21,785 nt of DNA from IMG/VR virus record IMGVR_UViG_3300025162_000193, positions 1-21,785 of that record; one strand, 5' to 3'. The translations under genes and the position numbers were made by a program. This document shows, one piece after another, positions 2 through 12,889 of this stretch. This stretch comes from a virus. Under the pieces are notes generated by a model that had not been told where the DNA came from, ran no database searches, and worked only from the letters and a program-made list of their open reading frames with translations. How positions within the stretch are numbered: position 1 is the first letter of the stretch; the number at the start of each line of letters is the position of its first letter.

Positions 2-94
2 CCACGCACTGACACCGCCGCGCACTTCCTCGCGGACCTCGCGGAGGCAGGCGTCATAACGATACTGGAGGTCGACGATGAGTCGACGCAATAG
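2..94 (+). CDS. C-terminal end of an unidentified gene (partial)
   Basis: An open frame enters from the left edge and runs about 30 codons to a TAG at 92-94. It overlaps the next gene's ATG at 78 by 17 bases. The visible tail contains HFLADLAEAGVITILEVDD, which looks like an ordinary soluble helix-strand segment, and its codons end mostly in G or C. The other two plus frames of this stretch contain stops or read as low-complexity sequence. No family can be recognised from 30 residues. It could be a chance open frame, but its position just before a tightly linked operon favours a real gene end. Confidence 0.45.
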   Translation, partial: PRTDTAAHFLADLAEAGVITILEVDDESTQ

Positions 95-863
95 GCGTGA
101 CTACTGGCAGAAAATCGACTGGCCGAAGTACATCGCGACGCTCGAAGCCGAGTACGCGACGCATTCCCGCCTGTACCTCGGGTACGGCTCGAATCTGAAC
201 GTCTTGCAGATGCAGGCGCGGTGTCCCACCAGCCTGCCGGTCGGGAAATTCAGGCTGAGGAATCACAAGCTCGTCTTCTCCTCGGTGCTCACCGTCGAGA
301 AGTGCAAGGGCTTAAGCGTACCCGCCGCGCTCTGGCGCGTAGCTCCGCAGGATATCGCGTCGCTCGACTCTTACGAGGGCTACCCGCACCTGTACGACAA
401 ACAGACCTGCCGCGCGTGGGTGGGAGGCAAGCTCGAAACAGCCTTCTACTACACGCTAAACGAGCCCTACGCGGTCGAGCCCCCGTGCATCTCCTACTAT
501 GAAACGTGCGCCGAGGGGTACGCCGAGTTCGGGCTCGACCTAAGCGTACTCGACGCAGCGGTCGCCGAGGCCGAGGTCGCCGCGCGCGAGGCCGAGGGTA
601 CTATCGAACAGTGCGGGTCCTGCATGGAGCACCAAACGCGCGGCACGATGGAGTATACCCGGAGCTTCGGCTACCTCTGCCCGTCTTGCGCAAAGGTGCT
701 CGGCTACGACTGGAGCTACGACTACGACCGCCCGACCTACGACTACGACGACACCACCGGGTCGAGCCACCGCATCAGCGACGACTATAACCTCATGCGC
801 GAGCTTGACTGGACCCGCGACGAATCGCGGGACGTGTGGGACGGAACCAATCTGACACTCTAG
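78..863 (+). CDS. Gamma-glutamylcyclotransferase-fold protein with zinc-ribbon-like tail
   Basis: Residues 31-150 match the GGCT/AIG2-like fold. YGSNL is at 36-40, the substrate-binding loop that opens the domain, and the LDxxEGYPxLY signature is at 96-106, with E100 in the place of the family's catalytic acid. Family enzymes cyclise gamma-glutamyl amino groups to release 5-oxoproline, so the likely substrate is a gamma-glutamyl peptide or isopeptide; the actual substrate is unknown. After a short helical linker (155-175) there are paired cysteines C179/C182 and C201/C204 spaced like a zinc ribbon, then a Tyr/Asp-rich acidic tail (206-225). Start: ATG at 78 with GGAGG at 67-71. At 261 residues it is longer than simple GGCT proteins (about 150-190). 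In phages such genes can accompany amidoligases; none is visible here, though only 94 bases of upstream sequence are present. Confidence 0.82.
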   Translation: MSRRNRRDYWQKIDWPKYIATLEAEYATHSRLYLGYGSNLNVLQMQARCPTSLPVGKFRLRNHKLVFSSVLTVEKCKGLSVPAALWRVAPQDIASLDSYEGYPHLYDKQTCRAWVGGKLETAFYYTLNEPYAVEPPCISYYETCAEGYAEFGLDLSVLDAAVAEAEVAAREAEGTIEQCGSCMEHQTRGTMEYTRSFGYLCPSCAKVLGYDWSYDYDRPTYDYDDTTGSSHRISDDYNLMRELDWTRDESRDVWDGTNLTL

Positions 864-3063: not shown

Positions 3064-3317
3064 AGACGTGCGGAGAGTGCAAGCAAGACGACTGCGGTGC
3101 CCGCTACAGCGCTGCCGATGTCGTGGCCTGTGACGACTTCACGGGGGTCGAGCTGGAGGCCAAGTCGCAGTGGTGCCCCACGCTGGAGGACTACAACATG
3201 CTCCGCGCCAGATACAATGACAGCATCCACCGCGAGACCATCCTGCGCGACCGCGTGACGCACTTCGAGCAGGCTGTGGCTGGCATCATCCGCTGGGCGC
3301 AGGAGGAGGTCGCATGA
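3060..3317 (+). CDS. Cys-rich small protein with C-terminal helix
   Basis: An 85-residue protein. The first 40 residues carry C4, C7, C12, C24 and C39 (TCGECKQDDCGARY...VACDDF...QWCPT), a likely zinc-binding knuckle. Residues 42-80 form one long amphipathic helix (LEDYNMLRARYNDSIHRE and onward). The overall form, a zinc knuckle followed by a helical stalk, recurs in other genes of this window. It is translationally coupled to rtcB: its last 15 bases contain GAGGAGG and the ATGA junction. Function unknown. Confidence 0.68.
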   Translation: MKTCGECKQDDCGARYSAADVVACDDFTGVELEAKSQWCPTLEDYNMLRARYNDSIHRETILRDRVTHFEQAVAGIIRWAQEEVA

Positions 3318-4468
3318 AGGTCTACGACTCCTACCGGGTTCCGTTGAAGCTCTGGCCCTCCGCGCTTGAAGAGGGGGCCATGGCTCAGGCCGAACACCTT
3401 GCCAGCTTGCCCTTCGCGTACAAGCACGTCGCCCTTATGCCCGACGCCCATCAGGGCTACGGCATGCCCATCGGGGGCGTGCTTGCGACTAAGGGTGTAG
3501 TAATCCCCAACGCTGTCGGCGTGGACATCGGGTGCGGCATGCGGGCCATCTGCACGAGCATGCACAAGGATGAGTGGCCCTCCTACCGCGTCCACATCAT
3601 GCACGAGCTTCAGCGCAGCATCCCCACGGGGTTCCGGCACCACGACCGCCAGCAGGAAGGCTGGCTGCCCGAGTTCACCAAGCTGGGCGACGTGACTGAG
3701 CGCGAGTATGAGAAGAGCCTCAAGTCCATCGGCACCCTCGGTGGCGGCAATCACTTCATCGAGGTCCAGCATGACGAGGACGGCAACGTCTGGTTCATGG
3801 TCCACTCGGGCTCACGCAACCTCGGAAAGCAGGTCTGCGACCACTACGGCAAGAGGGCCAAGGCGATGAACGCTCGTTGGCACTCCGACGTGTGCCCCGG
3901 CTGGGACCTCGCCTTCCTGCCGCTCGAAGACATCGAGGCCAAACGCTACCTTACCGATATGGAGAACTGCCTGACCTTCGCCCATGAGAACCGTCGCCGC
4001 ATGATGAAGCACATCGAGGGCGAGGTCACGGTGCTCGGCCACAAGGTCGAGAAGTTCTACGACACCCATCACAACTTCGCCGCCATGGAGAACCACTTCG
4101 GGGTGAACGTCATGGTGCATCGCAAGGGAGCGGTGCGCGCACGCAAGGACGAGATGGTCATCATCCCCGGCTCCATGGGCACGCACAGCTATATCGCCAA
4201 GGGGCTCGGCAGCCCGGATAGCTTCCAGAGCTGCTCCCACGGTGCCGGTCGCTGTATGGGCCGCATGCAGGCCCGTCGCGTCATCGACCCTGCGGCGCTG
4301 TGGCGTCAGATGGAAGACCTCGGCGTGGCCCTCTACACCAAGGACTTCACGGGCGTGGTTGAGGAGGCTCCCGGTGCCTATAAGGACATCGACGTGGTCA
4401 TGAGTGAGCAGAGCGACCTCGTATCAATCGTGACTACGCTCACGCCGATGGCGTGCATCAAGGCATGA
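3314..4468 (+). CDS. rtcB: RtcB-type tRNA-splicing/RNA repair ligase
   Basis: A full-length RtcB of 384 residues. RtcB joins RNA 2',3'-cyclic phosphate (or 3'-phosphate) ends to 5'-OH ends using GTP and Mn2+. Metal and active-site positions are intact: VGVDIGCG with D71 and C74, GGGNHFIE with N146/H147, HSGSR with H164, H253 in THHNF, and the guanylylated-histidine motif SHGAGR (308-313, H309). The spacings H147-H164 and H253-H309 equal those of the E. coli enzyme (168-185, 281-337). The length is close to the bacterial form (about 400), so it is not truncated. Start ATG 3314 has GAGGAGG upstream. No archease, tRNA or RNA-end-healing gene is visible nearby. A likely role is repair of host or phage tRNA cut by a defence nuclease; that is inference from known phage RNA-repair strategies. 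Confidence 0.95.
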   Translation: MKVYDSYRVPLKLWPSALEEGAMAQAEHLASLPFAYKHVALMPDAHQGYGMPIGGVLATKGVVIPNAVGVDIGCGMRAICTSMHKDEWPSYRVHIMHELQRSIPTGFRHHDRQQEGWLPEFTKLGDVTEREYEKSLKSIGTLGGGNHFIEVQHDEDGNVWFMVHSGSRNLGKQVCDHYGKRAKAMNARWHSDVCPGWDLAFLPLEDIEAKRYLTDMENCLTFAHENRRRMMKHIEGEVTVLGHKVEKFYDTHHNFAAMENHFGVNVMVHRKGAVRARKDEMVIIPGSMGTHSYIAKGLGSPDSFQSCSHGAGRCMGRMQARRVIDPAALWRQMEDLGVALYTKDFTGVVEEAPGAYKDIDVVMSEQSDLVSIVTTLTPMACIKA

Positions 4469-9475: not shown

Positions 9476-10750
9476 TCAATCCTCGAATCGTTGGTAGCGG
9501 GGGACCCACGGGAGGGCGACGTTGCCCTGCGAGCCGTGGCGGTTCTTGGCTACGTGGATGTCCACCCAAGGAGCAGTGCTGCTGCCCCCTGAGGGGTCCT
9601 GCGGGTGCGAGAGCAGCCACACTTGGTCGGCGTCCTGCTCCAGAGACCCGGACTCACGGAGCTGGGAGAGCTTGGGGATGCCGTCACTCAGGACGGACTC
9701 GCTCTCACGGTTGAGCTGCGAGAGGGCGAGCACTGGGCAGCTCAGCTCGCGGGCGAGCGCCTTCAACTCGCGGCTGATGGTGCTGACCTCTACGAAGCGG
9801 CTCTCTTGCCTCGTGCCGTGCGTGAGGAGCTGAAGGTAATCCACAACGATGAGCTTGAGCTGCTTGCGGGCAGCGAGCTGCCGCGCACGGCTCTTGAGTG
9901 ACAGCAGGGTAAGGGACGGGTTGTCGATGACCTGCATGTCGAGTGCTGCCATCTCCCCCACCGCTCTGCCGATGCTGGCGAGCTGCTCCGGCCCGGAGTC
10001 ACGCTGACGCAGCCTCGTGAGGCTGACCTCGCCGATGGAACAGATGACGCGCTCACTCAGCTCCTGCTGGCTCATCTCCAGCGAGAAGAAGGCGACTGTG
10101 CCTTCCCGCGATACGTTGCGGGCGATGTTGAGGGCGAGGCACGTCTTGCCGATGCCGGGCCGTGCGCCGATGATGATGAGGTTGCCGTGGTGCATGCCGC
10201 TGGTCTGTTCATCGAGCAGGCGGAAGCCAGTCTTGACACTGTCGGCCACCTTGCCGCTCAGGCACTCGTCGTAGATGGCCTCTGCCGCCCTTGCGAGGCT
10301 GATGGTGTCGCCAGCGGCGTCGGGGCGCAGTTTGTAGACCTTGGCCTCAGCGGCGTCGAGCAGGGTCTGCGGCTCGTCGGTTGTCTTGTAGCCCAGCTCG
10401 ACAATCTCGTGACCCGCCTTGATGAGGTCGCGTTGGGTGCTGGTGCGCTTGACGATGTCCGCGTAGTACGTGGCGTTGCTGGCGGCTGGGCACTGCTCCG
10501 CCATGCCCACGATGTAATCATGCTCATCGGGGAACTGGGCACCGATGGTGACCACGTCAGCACTCTGAGTGCTGCTGGTCCACGCCCCGAGGATGGTGGT
10601 GAAGATGTCCCCGTTGATGGACTTGTAGAAGTCAGAGCGCGTGACCAAGTCGCTTACCGCGCCGATGGCTGACGGGTTGACGAGCATGGCCCCGAGGAGG
10701 GCCTGCTCCGCCGCCAAGTCGCACGGCGGGACGAGGTCCTCGGCCTTCAA
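9476..10750 (-). CDS. DnaB-type replicative DNA helicase
   Basis: A 424-residue helicase. The N-terminal domain (1-145) begins with the family's PPCDLAAEQALLGAML, where the bacterial form has PP(x)n-EAE-(x)-LLGA. The RecA-like domain has Walker A GARPGIGKT (195-203), SLEM (223-226), Walker B VVDYLQLL (302-309, D304), ALSQLNRE (342-349) and LRESGSLEQDADQVWLL (364-380), with the late KNRHGSQG (402-409) for the arginine-finger region. It unwinds the fork ahead of the phage replisome as a ring hexamer. The length is slightly below E. coli DnaB (471). The start is TTG 10750, forming a TTGA overlap with the Cas4-like stop, with GAGGG four bases upstream. No primase, polymerase or helicase loader is visible in the window. 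Confidence 0.93.
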   Translation of the reverse strand: MKAEDLVPPCDLAAEQALLGAMLVNPSAIGAVSDLVTRSDFYKSINGDIFTTILGAWTSSTQSADVVTIGAQFPDEHDYIVGMAEQCPAASNATYYADIVKRTSTQRDLIKAGHEIVELGYKTTDEPQTLLDAAEAKVYKLRPDAAGDTISLARAAEAIYDECLSGKVADSVKTGFRLLDEQTSGMHHGNLIIIGARPGIGKTCLALNIARNVSREGTVAFFSLEMSQQELSERVICSIGEVSLTRLRQRDSGPEQLASIGRAVGEMAALDMQVIDNPSLTLLSLKSRARQLAARKQLKLIVVDYLQLLTHGTRQESRFVEVSTISRELKALARELSCPVLALSQLNRESESVLSDGIPKLSQLRESGSLEQDADQVWLLSHPQDPSGGSSTAPWVDIHVAKNRHGSQGNVALPWVPRYQRFED

Positions 10751-11655
10751 GCAGCCCTCAAGGGGTGAAGCATCTTATCGGCGTTGGCTTCCACGAACCT
10801 CACGAGCAAGGGCAGGTCGTAGCATGCCCTCTTGGGGACCATCACCTGAAGCTCCTTGTCAATCTCCGCCCACACACTCTTGCCGGTGTCGGGCTCACAG
10901 GTGCCCTTGTAGTCGCAGTAGCGGCAGTTCCAGTCAGGCTCCAGCACAATCTGCTTGTTGTAGCTGCGGAACTCAAGCACCTTAGGGCAGGGGTCAGGCA
11001 GCCCTGACTCGCCAGCCGCACCCACGGCGTTGCGTGTGGCCTCCAGCTCGTCCATGAGCCAGCCCGTCTCAGCGGAGGGGTCCACGTCATACTCGTTCGG
11101 CTCGCCGGAGCCGTCACGGCTCACGTACCAGAGAAGCGGCGGGGCATCCAGCTCGTAATCCTCATGCAGCTCGATGTCGTAGCTGCTCGCCTGATGAGTG
11201 TGTGGCACCTTGGGCAGCTCATAGTTGGATGCGGGGCCGCGATGGGTCTTGACCTCGATGATGCGGCGATAGCCGTCGAGTCTCACTATGAGGTCCACGC
11301 GACCTCCCCAGTTACGACGACCCTCGTAGGGCACGCCGGTCTGACTGTCGATGAGGTCCCCACGCCAGAGGAAGGCGGCGGTGAGCATCGCCTCCATGTA
11401 CTCGGCCACGTCGAACATGCGCTGGCTGTTGCGCTGCTGCTCGGGAGTCTCCGCGTCCTTGACGGTGGAGAGAAGCCGGTACGCTACCGACCTAGTACAC
11501 TTGCCGATGTCGGTGCAATAGAGGCGCATCGGGTCGCGCACCTTGTCAACCTTGGGGTGATTGAGGAAAATCTCCTCGAAGCACTGGACGGCATGGACCT
11601 CGCCGTACTGGCGGGCAATCATGAAGTCGTTGTAGATGTCGGCGAGCAGTGTCAT
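10747..11655 (-). CDS. Cas4-like Fe-S PD-(D/E)xK exonuclease
   Basis: A 302-residue protein with the Cas4/RecB-type layout: an N-terminal cysteine after the first motif (YCTDIGKCTRSVAY, C53), a helix with E85, the nuclease core GGRVDLIV (D121) and RRIIEVKTHRG (E134-x-K136), a Gln-bearing helix (HTHQASSY), and a C-terminal cluster NCRYCDYKGTC (C244, C247, C253) that with C53 would hold a 4Fe-4S cluster. Known relatives digest single-stranded DNA ends and create 3' overhangs; phage forms commonly sit in replication modules. I chose ATG 11655 because it overlaps the upstream stop (ATGA) with GTGGGG just before; earlier in-frame codons lie in the previous gene. No cas1, cas2 or CRISPR array is present. 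Confidence 0.85.
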   Translation of the reverse strand: MTLLADIYNDFMIARQYGEVHAVQCFEEIFLNHPKVDKVRDPMRLYCTDIGKCTRSVAYRLLSTVKDAETPEQQRNSQRMFDVAEYMEAMLTAAFLWRGDLIDSQTGVPYEGRRNWGGRVDLIVRLDGYRRIIEVKTHRGPASNYELPKVPHTHQASSYDIELHEDYELDAPPLLWYVSRDGSGEPNEYDVDPSAETGWLMDELEATRNAVGAAGESGLPDPCPKVLEFRSYNKQIVLEPDWNCRYCDYKGTCEPDTGKSVWAEIDKELQVMVPKRACYDLPLLVRFVEANADKMLHPLRAA

Positions 11656-11777
11656 TTTCCCCACTTCCCCTTCTTCTTCTTCACCGGCTTCGGGAACGCG
11701 CACCCCGAGTAGTCCATCGACGGGCCTTCCTTGAACGCCTTGCTGTCTGCTGGCTCGACCTTCTCGACCTTCTTCAT
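11652..11777 (-). CDS. Tiny basic protein, 41 residues
   Basis: Reads MKKVEKVEPADSKAFKEGPS, then MDYSGCAFPKPVKKKKGKWG plus K. It is strongly basic at the end. ATG 11777 and the stop both make ATGA overlaps with the neighbours, which supports reality and excludes longer in-frame starts that would run through the upstream gene. The GCAFPKPxKKKK run recalls the N-termini of some phage HNH recombination proteins, so it may be the remnant of a larger gene, but I cannot show that. Confidence 0.55.
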   Translation of the reverse strand: MKKVEKVEPADSKAFKEGPSMDYSGCAFPKPVKKKKGKWGK

Positions 11778-12184
11778 GAGCGTCCCCGTGGAGTCAGCCA
11801 GCGGATGGGCATGAGCACGCCCTTGCTGGTATTGTTGTCGCCTCCGGGGGTGCATCCCGTGAGCCTGTAGGCGGCTCTCGCCGCTTCGCGATACTCGCTT
11901 GTCGGAGTGAGGATGCAGGACCACGGCCCTCCTTTAGTCTGGGTGAAGACCGTGGCCTGCAACATCGCTTGCGTCGTCTTGAACCCGCTGGGGTTGCCCC
12001 TGCTCTCGTACTCAGCGTAGGCGTTCCCCGTATCCCATGCACGAGCGATTTCGGACTTGACCTCGATGGTCACCTTGCCATCGCAGATGTTCTCAACGAA
12101 CCGCTGCGCGAGTTCTCCACCAGCGAGGTCGAACCGGAAGTCATTGTTCCACTCCAACTCAGAACGGGATGTCGTCGTCGGCAT
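11774..12184 (-). CDS. Putative EVK-motif nuclease-like protein
   Basis: A 136-residue protein. Residues 12-43 contain FRFDLAGGELAQRF...KVTIEVKSE, where E24 and E41-V-K43 fit a compact PD-(D/E)xK core, followed by TGNAYAEYESRGNPSGFKTT (52-71). This 'IEVK...TGN...EYESRGxPSG' pattern is recognisable among uncharacterised phage proteins. The C-terminal half (AYRLTGCTPGGDNN... MPIRWL) is less conserved-looking. Role inferred: DNA cleavage in replication or recombination, consistent with its place between the SSB-like and Cas4-like genes. ATG 12184 gives a 26-base overlap upstream and has no clear ribosome-binding site, so the start is uncertain. Confidence 0.65.
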   Translation of the reverse strand: MPTTTSRSELEWNNDFRFDLAGGELAQRFVENICDGKVTIEVKSEIARAWDTGNAYAEYESRGNPSGFKTTQAMLQATVFTQTKGGPWSCILTPTSEYREAARAAYRLTGCTPGGDNNTSKGVLMPIRWLTPRGRS

Positions 12185-12845
12185 CGGGGCCGTTCGGCAC
12201 AGCTATGGAGGCGAGGCCGCTCAGAGGCGGAAGGCTCGCAGCTCCTCCGACTCCGAGACCTTCATCGCTCCCAGCGACTGTATTGCTGAGTCCATCAGCG
12301 ACTGGAAAGCTGGCATCAGCCGCCGTGTCTGCCCACGCGAGGGCCTTGTCACAGTCATTGAGGAAGGTCTCCATGTCGATGCCGCTACCGGCCTGAAGCG
12401 TGGCGACCGAACGCAGCACGTCGGAGCGCTGCATCTGCACCGGGGTACGGTACTTGTCACCGGCGGGCGAGGGGGCCGAGGCGGTGGAGAGGTTACTGCT
12501 GGTGGAGTTCCCACTGCCTGTGTTGCCGCCAGTCCACGGCTCCTTGGAGTCCCACGAATCCAGCTCTCCGGGGGCGGCGGGTACGGCCTCGTTGATGAAC
12601 TTCATCATCGTGCCGGGGAAGCTCGTGCTCTCGGCCACGTCGTAGGAAATCTTGATGCGGTTGCCCACCGTCATGATGGCCGCGCAGTTGGGCTGCCCCG
12701 CCTTGGCGGAGTAGTTCCACTTCCACTGGCTGCCGCAGGTGAGCTTCACCTTCGAGGGCGGGTTACCGCCCGCCATCACTTGCACGTTGCCGATAGTGAT
12801 GACGGCGATGTTGTTCTTGCAGGGCTGGTCGGGCTTCGGAAGCAT
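12159..12845 (-). CDS. SSB-like protein (acidic DDDIPF tip)
   Basis: A 228-residue protein ending in DADDDIPF, the hallmark tip by which bacterial single-strand DNA-binding proteins recruit replication partners. Residues 10-90 are beta-rich (NNIAVITIGNVQVMAGG, KVKLTCGSQWKWNYS, NRIKISYDVAES) and could be a divergent OB fold, though no canonical SSB signature is visible. Residues 92-130 are a Gly/Ser/Pro-rich linker, 131-172 a helical segment, and 175-220 a second flexible linker. ATG 12845 has AGGAG at ideal spacing; the longer open frame upstream crosses the promoter and hairpin region. It heads the replication operon, as expected for an SSB. Confidence is in the tail and context more than in the fold. 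Confidence 0.72.
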   Translation of the reverse strand: MLPKPDQPCKNNIAVITIGNVQVMAGGNPPSKVKLTCGSQWKWNYSAKAGQPNCAAIMTVGNRIKISYDVAESTSFPGTMMKFINEAVPAAPGELDSWDSKEPWTGGNTGSGNSTSSNLSTASAPSPAGDKYRTPVQMQRSDVLRSVATLQAGSGIDMETFLNDCDKALAWADTAADASFPVADGLSNTVAGSDEGLGVGGAASLPPLSGLASIAVPNGPDADDDIPF

Positions 12846-12889
12846 GTTGTCTCCTGACGCTTGGTGGGTGGGCCTTGGAGATGGGAAGA

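Follow-up and report, generated by a model that had tools for sequence, protein, structure and literature searches.

A gene of an uncultured phage encoding a candidate single-stranded DNA-binding protein with a bacterial SSB-type tip

The window considered here comprises positions 1 to 21,785 of a record of an uncultured virus (IMG/VR record IMGVR_UViG_3300025162_000193). On its minus strand lies a gene running from 12845 down to 12159, the translation of which is a protein of 228 amino acids with the C-terminus DADDDIPF. A preliminary description of the locus, made from the sequence alone, had placed a protein with this ending, similar to that of bacterial single-stranded DNA-binding proteins (SSBs), at 12159-12845; the coordinates are right, with the gene on the minus strand, and translation confirms the ending, which is kept across the family while the linker before it has diverged. 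The plus-strand translation of the same interval is unrelated to the 228-residue product. A Shine-Dalgarno-like AGGAG precedes the ATG, G+C at the third codon positions of the frame amounts to 81%, and homologues are found in other records, which together indicate that this is a real gene. The features of the gene and its surroundings are as follows.

9476..10750, minus strand: DnaB-type replicative helicase gene, downstream (DnaB_C E 1.3e-78; phrog_19 E 8.2e-90)
10747..11655, minus strand: PD-(D/E)XK (Cas4/RecB-like) nuclease gene, downstream (PF12705 E 8.3e-08; phrog_1706 E 1.5e-14; both from a scan of the longer ORF 10747-11703)
11774..12184, minus strand: ORF of 136 amino acids, phrog_13596 (unknown function), downstream and overlapping the 3' end of the SSB-like gene
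12159..12845, minus strand: SSB-like gene, 228 amino acids, with ATG at 12845 and stop codon at 12161-12159 (from translation and relatives)
12162..12185, minus strand: SSB-type tip DADDDIPF, residues 221-228, resembling the ends of 22 control SSBs
12186..12299, minus strand: flexible linker 2 (from its composition), residues 183-220; dN/dS 0.69, 12 gapped columns
12300..12455, minus strand: conserved, probably helical segment, residues 131-182, with RTP.Q.QR ... FL..CD..LAWAD (alignments A2 and A4); dN/dS 0.31
12456..12563, minus strand: flexible linker 1, residues 95-130, rich in G/S/T/N/P; dN/dS 0.58, 11 gapped columns
12564..12845, minus strand: N-terminal domain, residues 1-94, basic (pI 9.2), with a predicted OB fold; dN/dS 0.24
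12851..12855, minus strand: Shine-Dalgarno-like AGGAG, five bases before the ATG of the SSB-like gene

The order in which the SSB-like gene is followed by the genes for the PD-(D/E)XK nuclease and the DnaB-type helicase, all on the same strand, recurs in each of the six distinct loci of the family, the helicase gene of one of them (L004) being cut by the contig end. The 136-residue ORF is present in two of the six (the window and L003), and its pelagiphage relatives adjoin genes for DNA polymerase or exonuclease. To judge by eye, its product may be a small nuclease-type protein. A six-frame search for the SSB family PF00436 (E<=1) in the nine related records, of which some are no more than short fragments, returned no match, while 12 of 14 control genomes were positive. 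DnaB is encoded in all four of the long related records (42.5, 45.3, 51.0 and 49.6 kb). The three DNA polymerase families sought in these four records, which may be incomplete, namely family A, family B and Pol III alpha, gave no match, and end repeats were absent from the records at the lengths tested.

Relatives of the window protein occur in nine other records of the viral collection, all of them uncultured phage contigs. One of these loci (L002; 12,684 bases within a 42,549-base record) is identical to the window along its full length and represents the same virus. After identical proteins are merged (L002 with the window, L005 with L007, and L008 with both L009 and L010), the family comprises six distinct proteins including that of the window, with which each of the other five shares 54-59% identity. 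The viral collection was scanned four times by pattern, and these scans together yielded the same nine records; they need a conserved peptide, and distant relatives would escape them. No relative was detected by tblastn among 50,697 phage records, whether queried with the window protein at E up to 1 or with the L005 member at E up to 10, nor among 72,556 plasmid records queried with the L003 member at E up to 1. Pattern-based scans of GTDB, in which each of 84,980 species was represented by a single genome, likewise gave no relative, again with the limit that distant ones would escape. The single GTDB match obtained with the mid-tail segment as query (L138) is false, being a 50-codon open frame antisense to an ORF of 508 amino acids. 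Searches that proceeded through the neighbouring genes (nuclease, DnaB, the 136-residue ORF and terminase) uncovered no more distant family member. Family profiles run against the ORFs of loci L027-L128 recovered the known members only, profiles run on 36 records more remote from the family recovered none, an empty result that carries no weight without a positive control, and a 53-kb phage record with a 26%-identical nuclease (L049) contains no ORF bearing the tip.

Comparison with family libraries gave a similarly negative picture. Neither the whole protein, nor its N-terminal domain, nor the mid-tail segment has a significant match in Pfam, PHROG, NCBIfam or PDB sequence searches, and the window protein matches no Pfam family at E<=1. 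Member scans of alignment A1 against Pfam and PHROG, which covered five of the six distinct proteins, gave no match at E<=10 to the HMMs of either the SSB family PF00436 or DUF669 (PF05037), and no PHROG match better than E 0.07. The preliminary description had named a match to a standard SSB family as one result that would refute its proposal, and these searches produced none. Several weak matches were dismissed as chance: the NCBIfam model NF005051, "single-stranded DNA-binding protein" (E 0.17), which was reached by the L003 member only and covers residues 82-119, mostly linker; the Pfam family MccV (E 0.013), found in one of five members; an NCBIfam lipoprotein signal peptidase model (best E 0.01), at 15.6 bits against a cut-off of 241; and PDB sequence matches to LynD, a stretch of XpsB and a P450 (E 0.7-1.4). 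A term-based search of the literature, covering titles and the openings of abstracts, turned up no published description of the family.

The six proteins share a constant order of parts, in which a basic N-terminal domain is followed by a linker, a conserved segment, a second linker and an acidic tip. Mean pairwise identity is 79% in the N-terminal domain, 52% in linker 1, 63% in the mid-tail segment, 43% in linker 2 and 76% in the tip, and 23 of the 30 gapped columns of the alignment fall within the two linkers. For the eight codons of the tip dN is 0.14, with dN/dS not measurable owing to saturation of dS. Charge is divided along the chain, the N-terminal domain having a pI of 9.2 as against 4.1-4.5 for the acidic pieces of the tail. 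The division into two long linkers with a helical segment between them, suggested in the preliminary description, is thus upheld as far as linker, conserved segment and linker are concerned, by composition, indels and dN/dS; the helices (139-154 and 158-174) appear only in a full-length AlphaFold2 model of low confidence, which was built from six sequences and discarded at a pLDDT of 32. No such segment is known in the layout of bacterial SSBs, and it may resemble a motif found in other phage SSB-like proteins.

An acidic ...PF tip is found in all six distinct members while the linkers diverge, with DDDIPF as the ending in five and DEDSEFPF in the sixth (L010), which therefore closes with FPF. 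When the tip was defined as [DE], zero to five residues and a terminal [ILFVM]P[FW], and sought among six-frame ORFs of at least 60 amino acids, the family member was the sole bearer in each of the four long records (1 of 217 ORFs in G001, 1 of 232 in G002, 1 of 256 in G004 and 1 of 253 in G009). The 22 control SSBs, drawn from 32 bacterial-genome loci, all end in PF after acidic residues, which is preceded by I, L or V in 21 and takes the form PPF in the other, and one of them ends in FSDDDIPF. Among 74 more distant DnaB-bearing loci, a similar ending occurs in 10 of 2896 distinct ORFs. These ten comprise four Pfam SSBs (L062, L066, L069 and L120), one protein close to DUF669 (L076), two DnaB proteins (L081 and L119), one HNH protein (L081) and two proteins without a Pfam match (L081 and L100). 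The tip is therefore rare and its bearers are mostly replication proteins or DUF669-like, and alone it is not diagnostic of an SSB.

Two of these loci deserve separate description. Within L081:2877-6433, an HNH protein (KSVELPF), DnaB (KSDDLPF) and a 213-residue protein without a Pfam match (SGDELPF) are encoded near one another, possibly reflecting a docking tail shared by several replication proteins. At L076:2738-3136, on the plus strand, a DnaB-bearing phage locus encodes the protein resembling DUF669, which narrowly misses the Pfam cut-off (E 0.0007) and carries the tip EEEMPF.

The fold of the N-terminal domain was predicted with AlphaFold2 from the 95 residues of the relative in L004 and the six-sequence family alignment. 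The five models have mean pLDDT values of 68, 63, 54, 53 and 39, and the best of them (pLDDT 68.1, pTM 0.57) is of moderate confidence. It contains strands at 6-22, 29-34 and 39-43, a helix at 51-54, and strands at 60-69 and 77-86. With moderate confidence, the model points to an OB fold at about residues 8-92, in the canonical strand order, where strand 3 is followed by the helix and then by strand 4. The preliminary description had proposed structure prediction for these residues, and the prediction, made on the relative's domain, returns the OB strand order at the confidence just stated (pLDDT 68).

Structural comparison of this model is consistent with the same fold class. The best Foldseek match in the PDB is a subunit of RPA from Pyrococcus abyssi (E 0.029, probability 1.00), and the 50 matches listed include OB domains of lysyl-tRNA synthetases, RPA subunits, mycobacterial SSBs, PriB and PrgE, along with a few whose fold is not clearly OB, such as Potempin A, an Rhs immunity protein and CipA. 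In the viral model library the best match is an uncharacterised protein (E 0.005); among the 50 listed, four are DUF669 proteins and two are annotated as SSBs, one of which comes from Brevibacterium phage Cantare and is labelled an ssDNA-binding protein, and many entries lack an informative name. No match in either library reached E 0.001. VIA-align placed RecO first (Z 8.3, rmsd 2.8 over 74 aligned residues), with a second RecO entry at Z 7.7, a best Z of 7-8 being, by the tool's own note, typical of models without a clear match. After RecO, the 50 matches listed include tRNA synthetase OB domains, PolC, Ten1, HIN, RPA, PriB, CusF and SSB, where RPA, PriB and SSB score Z 6.4-6.9 and PriB, present in several entries, 6.5-6.7. 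Judging from their titles and from what is known of those folds, we take all 50 to be OB folds; absence of a family such as T7 gp2.5 from this list does not exclude it. Each score is modest when taken alone, and the assignment to the OB-fold class rests on the fact that the PDB matches converge on a single class of fold. The view that the protein is without a recognisable SSB fold is accordingly not supported, as an OB fold is predicted for the domain and its PDB neighbours are mainly OB proteins, RPA and bacterial SSBs among them, and the lack of a standard OB signature holds for its sequence only, in which no SSB family is matched.

One of the viral fold matches, M4W9T9, is probably gene 40 of the Mycobacterium phage FF47, the two being paired by their protein length of 215 amino acids alone. 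FF47 gene 40 was considered as a relative and set aside, for it has an acidic tail without such a tip and no sequence relation to the family was shown. In PHROG it matches two families, of which one carries the label DNA polymerase and the other has no known function.

Profile-profile comparison by hhalign against 23 SSBs gave the N-terminal domain a probability of 0.2% and an E of 0.39 (alignment A7), or 0.5% (A3). Both values fall short of the 2.2% reached by the top-scoring of 29 shuffles of the columns of A7. A higher score (4.3%, E 0.0095; the shuffle control covered A7 only) was obtained with the full alignment, in which the similarity spans the linker, the mid-tail segment and the tip as aligned with SSB tails, and not the OB domain. 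Sequence comparison thus lends neither support to, nor grounds for excluding, common descent of the N-terminal domain with bacterial SSBs.

Taken together, the predicted OB domain, the basic domain joined to an acidic tail, the conserved tip, the place of the gene and the lack of any other SSB candidate make an SSB the best explanation of the protein, which is probably the phage's own OB-fold ssDNA-binding protein, equipped with a tip directed at host proteins. Against this reading count the lack of a sequence-level link to SSBs, the moderate quality of the OB model and the presence of similar tips on proteins that are not SSBs. The RecO and PriB matches raise instead the possibility of an accessory factor, a PriB- or RecO-like OB-fold mediator that would assist in placing the phage DnaB, or a recombinase, onto ssDNA while its tip reaches host proteins, and the position of the gene upstream of DnaB in six of six loci would suit such a role. 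Those fold scores (8.3 and 7.7 for RecO, 6.5-6.7 for PriB) lie near the range common for models with no clear match and are shared by other OB folds in VIA-align. The combination of basic domain, flexible tail and tip, on the other side, is the layout of an SSB, in records where no other SSB candidate was found. To our knowledge RecO and PriB themselves carry no SSB-type tip, which also counts against a mediator, and this reading is considered unlikely.

Two further explanations are less likely still. The close match of the tip to those of bacterial SSBs, and the restriction of sequence relatives to these phages in the collections searched, would be expected of a decoy that displays the tip in order to occupy or redirect host SSB-binding proteins, with no important binding of DNA. 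A decoy is nonetheless very improbable, given that the N-terminal domain is also under purifying selection (dN/dS 0.24), is basic and has a predicted OB fold, and that the gene lies within a replication cluster. That the protein has some other function and resembles an SSB at its end by coincidence gains something from the ten tip bearers among the 2896 distinct ORFs of other phage loci, six of which are not Pfam SSBs; set against this are the presence of the acidic ...PF tip in 6/6 members, its uniqueness in each of the four long records and the predicted OB domain, and coincidence is rated the least probable of these readings. The suggestion of a new or highly diverged single-strand-binding family therefore stands in its description of a diverged candidate family without a sequence match to any SSB family, and ssDNA binding itself is something that we infer. 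Most likely, the gene encodes a new, highly diverged ssDNA-binding protein, of the kind that covers ssDNA while DNA is replicated, whose family is absent from the libraries searched.

If the protein is indeed an SSB, its small N-terminal OB domain (about residues 8-92) would bind ssDNA, the two low-complexity linkers would serve as flexible tethers, and the acidic tip would act as a bacterial-type docking peptide for the host proteins that read the SSB tail. Once the phage DnaB had unwound the DNA, the tip would thereby link the resulting phage ssDNA to host enzymes of replication and repair, a coupling suggested by the lack of any recognised DNA polymerase in these phages. The mid-tail segment could provide a second site of interaction or self-association, possibly for the phage DnaB or the PD-(D/E)XK nuclease. 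A more elaborate and rather doubtful version holds that the family arose independently as a phage SSB with a bacterial tip, and that its mid-tail helices recruit the cognate DnaB or nuclease, such that the tail serves both host and phage; the mid-tail module would then hand ssDNA to the cognate DnaB and PD-(D/E)XK nuclease. With a module that has stayed conserved while the linkers on either side drift, the family offers a way to test whether an SSB tail can have a further docking site in addition to the tip.

Among known systems, bacterial SSBs (PF00436; phage copies in phrog_44) share with the family the predicted OB fold, the basic domain, the flexible linker and the DDDIPF tip, and in some other phage loci (L062 and L066) SSB genes likewise adjoin DnaB. 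They differ in that the family has neither an HMM match to them nor significant profile similarity in the OB domain, and in that its extra conserved segment divides the tail into two linkers. Four major groups of SSBs from dsDNA phages are cited in PMC5686142, namely E. coli-like, T7-like, T4 gp32-like and N4-like, and in general sequence scans the family matched none of them; for the T4 gp32 and N4 types, this lack of a significant match refers to general library scans only. With T7 gp2.5 and Enc34 ORF6 (DUF2815) the family shares an OB fold, here predicted, and an acidic tail, here of pI 4.1-4.5. The hallmark of those proteins is a long helix right after strand 2 (PMC5686142), whereas strands 2 and 3 of the present model are four residues apart and its sole helix, a short one, comes after strand 3 and before strand 4; the family also has no Pfam match.

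Two other papers (PMC3208561; PMC11137577) provide precedents, from phage or plasmid, for OB-fold SSBs that bear no clear likeness to those of the host. The lactococcal Orf14bIL67 and p2 SSB are there described as a phage-only family without sequence similarity to host SSBs (PMC3208561); library scans gave no sequence match of the present family to them. PrgE of plasmid pCF10 is an OB-fold protein far from bacterial SSBs in sequence (PMC11137577), and is among the Foldseek matches listed for the N-terminal domain (8s4s_B, E 0.17), though without a match in the PDB sequence search. DUF669 phage proteins account for four of the 50 viral fold matches listed and include the DUF669-like protein with a similar tip noted above (L076); the family differs in lacking a Pfam DUF669 match, the resemblance being one of fold only. 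The protein has a good claim to represent a new family, one that belongs to a known kind of system and has an unusual conserved module in its tail. Phage SSBs without sequence likeness to known ones can be overlooked, and here the tip, the gene order and a fold prediction confined to one domain indicate an SSB missed by every family library used.

Elsewhere in the window, two genes on the strand opposite to that of the SSB-like gene can be named from their domains. Positions 3314-4468 (plus strand) encode an RtcB-type RNA ligase (PF01139 E 3.1e-111; phrog_1075 E 2e-118), and positions 78-863 (plus strand) a protein with a gamma-glutamyl cyclotransferase (AIG2-like) domain (PF06094 E 3e-08). 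A longer record of the same virus encodes a tyrosine integrase (L019:1752-2771, plus strand; PF00589 E 7e-17), and the phage may therefore be temperate.
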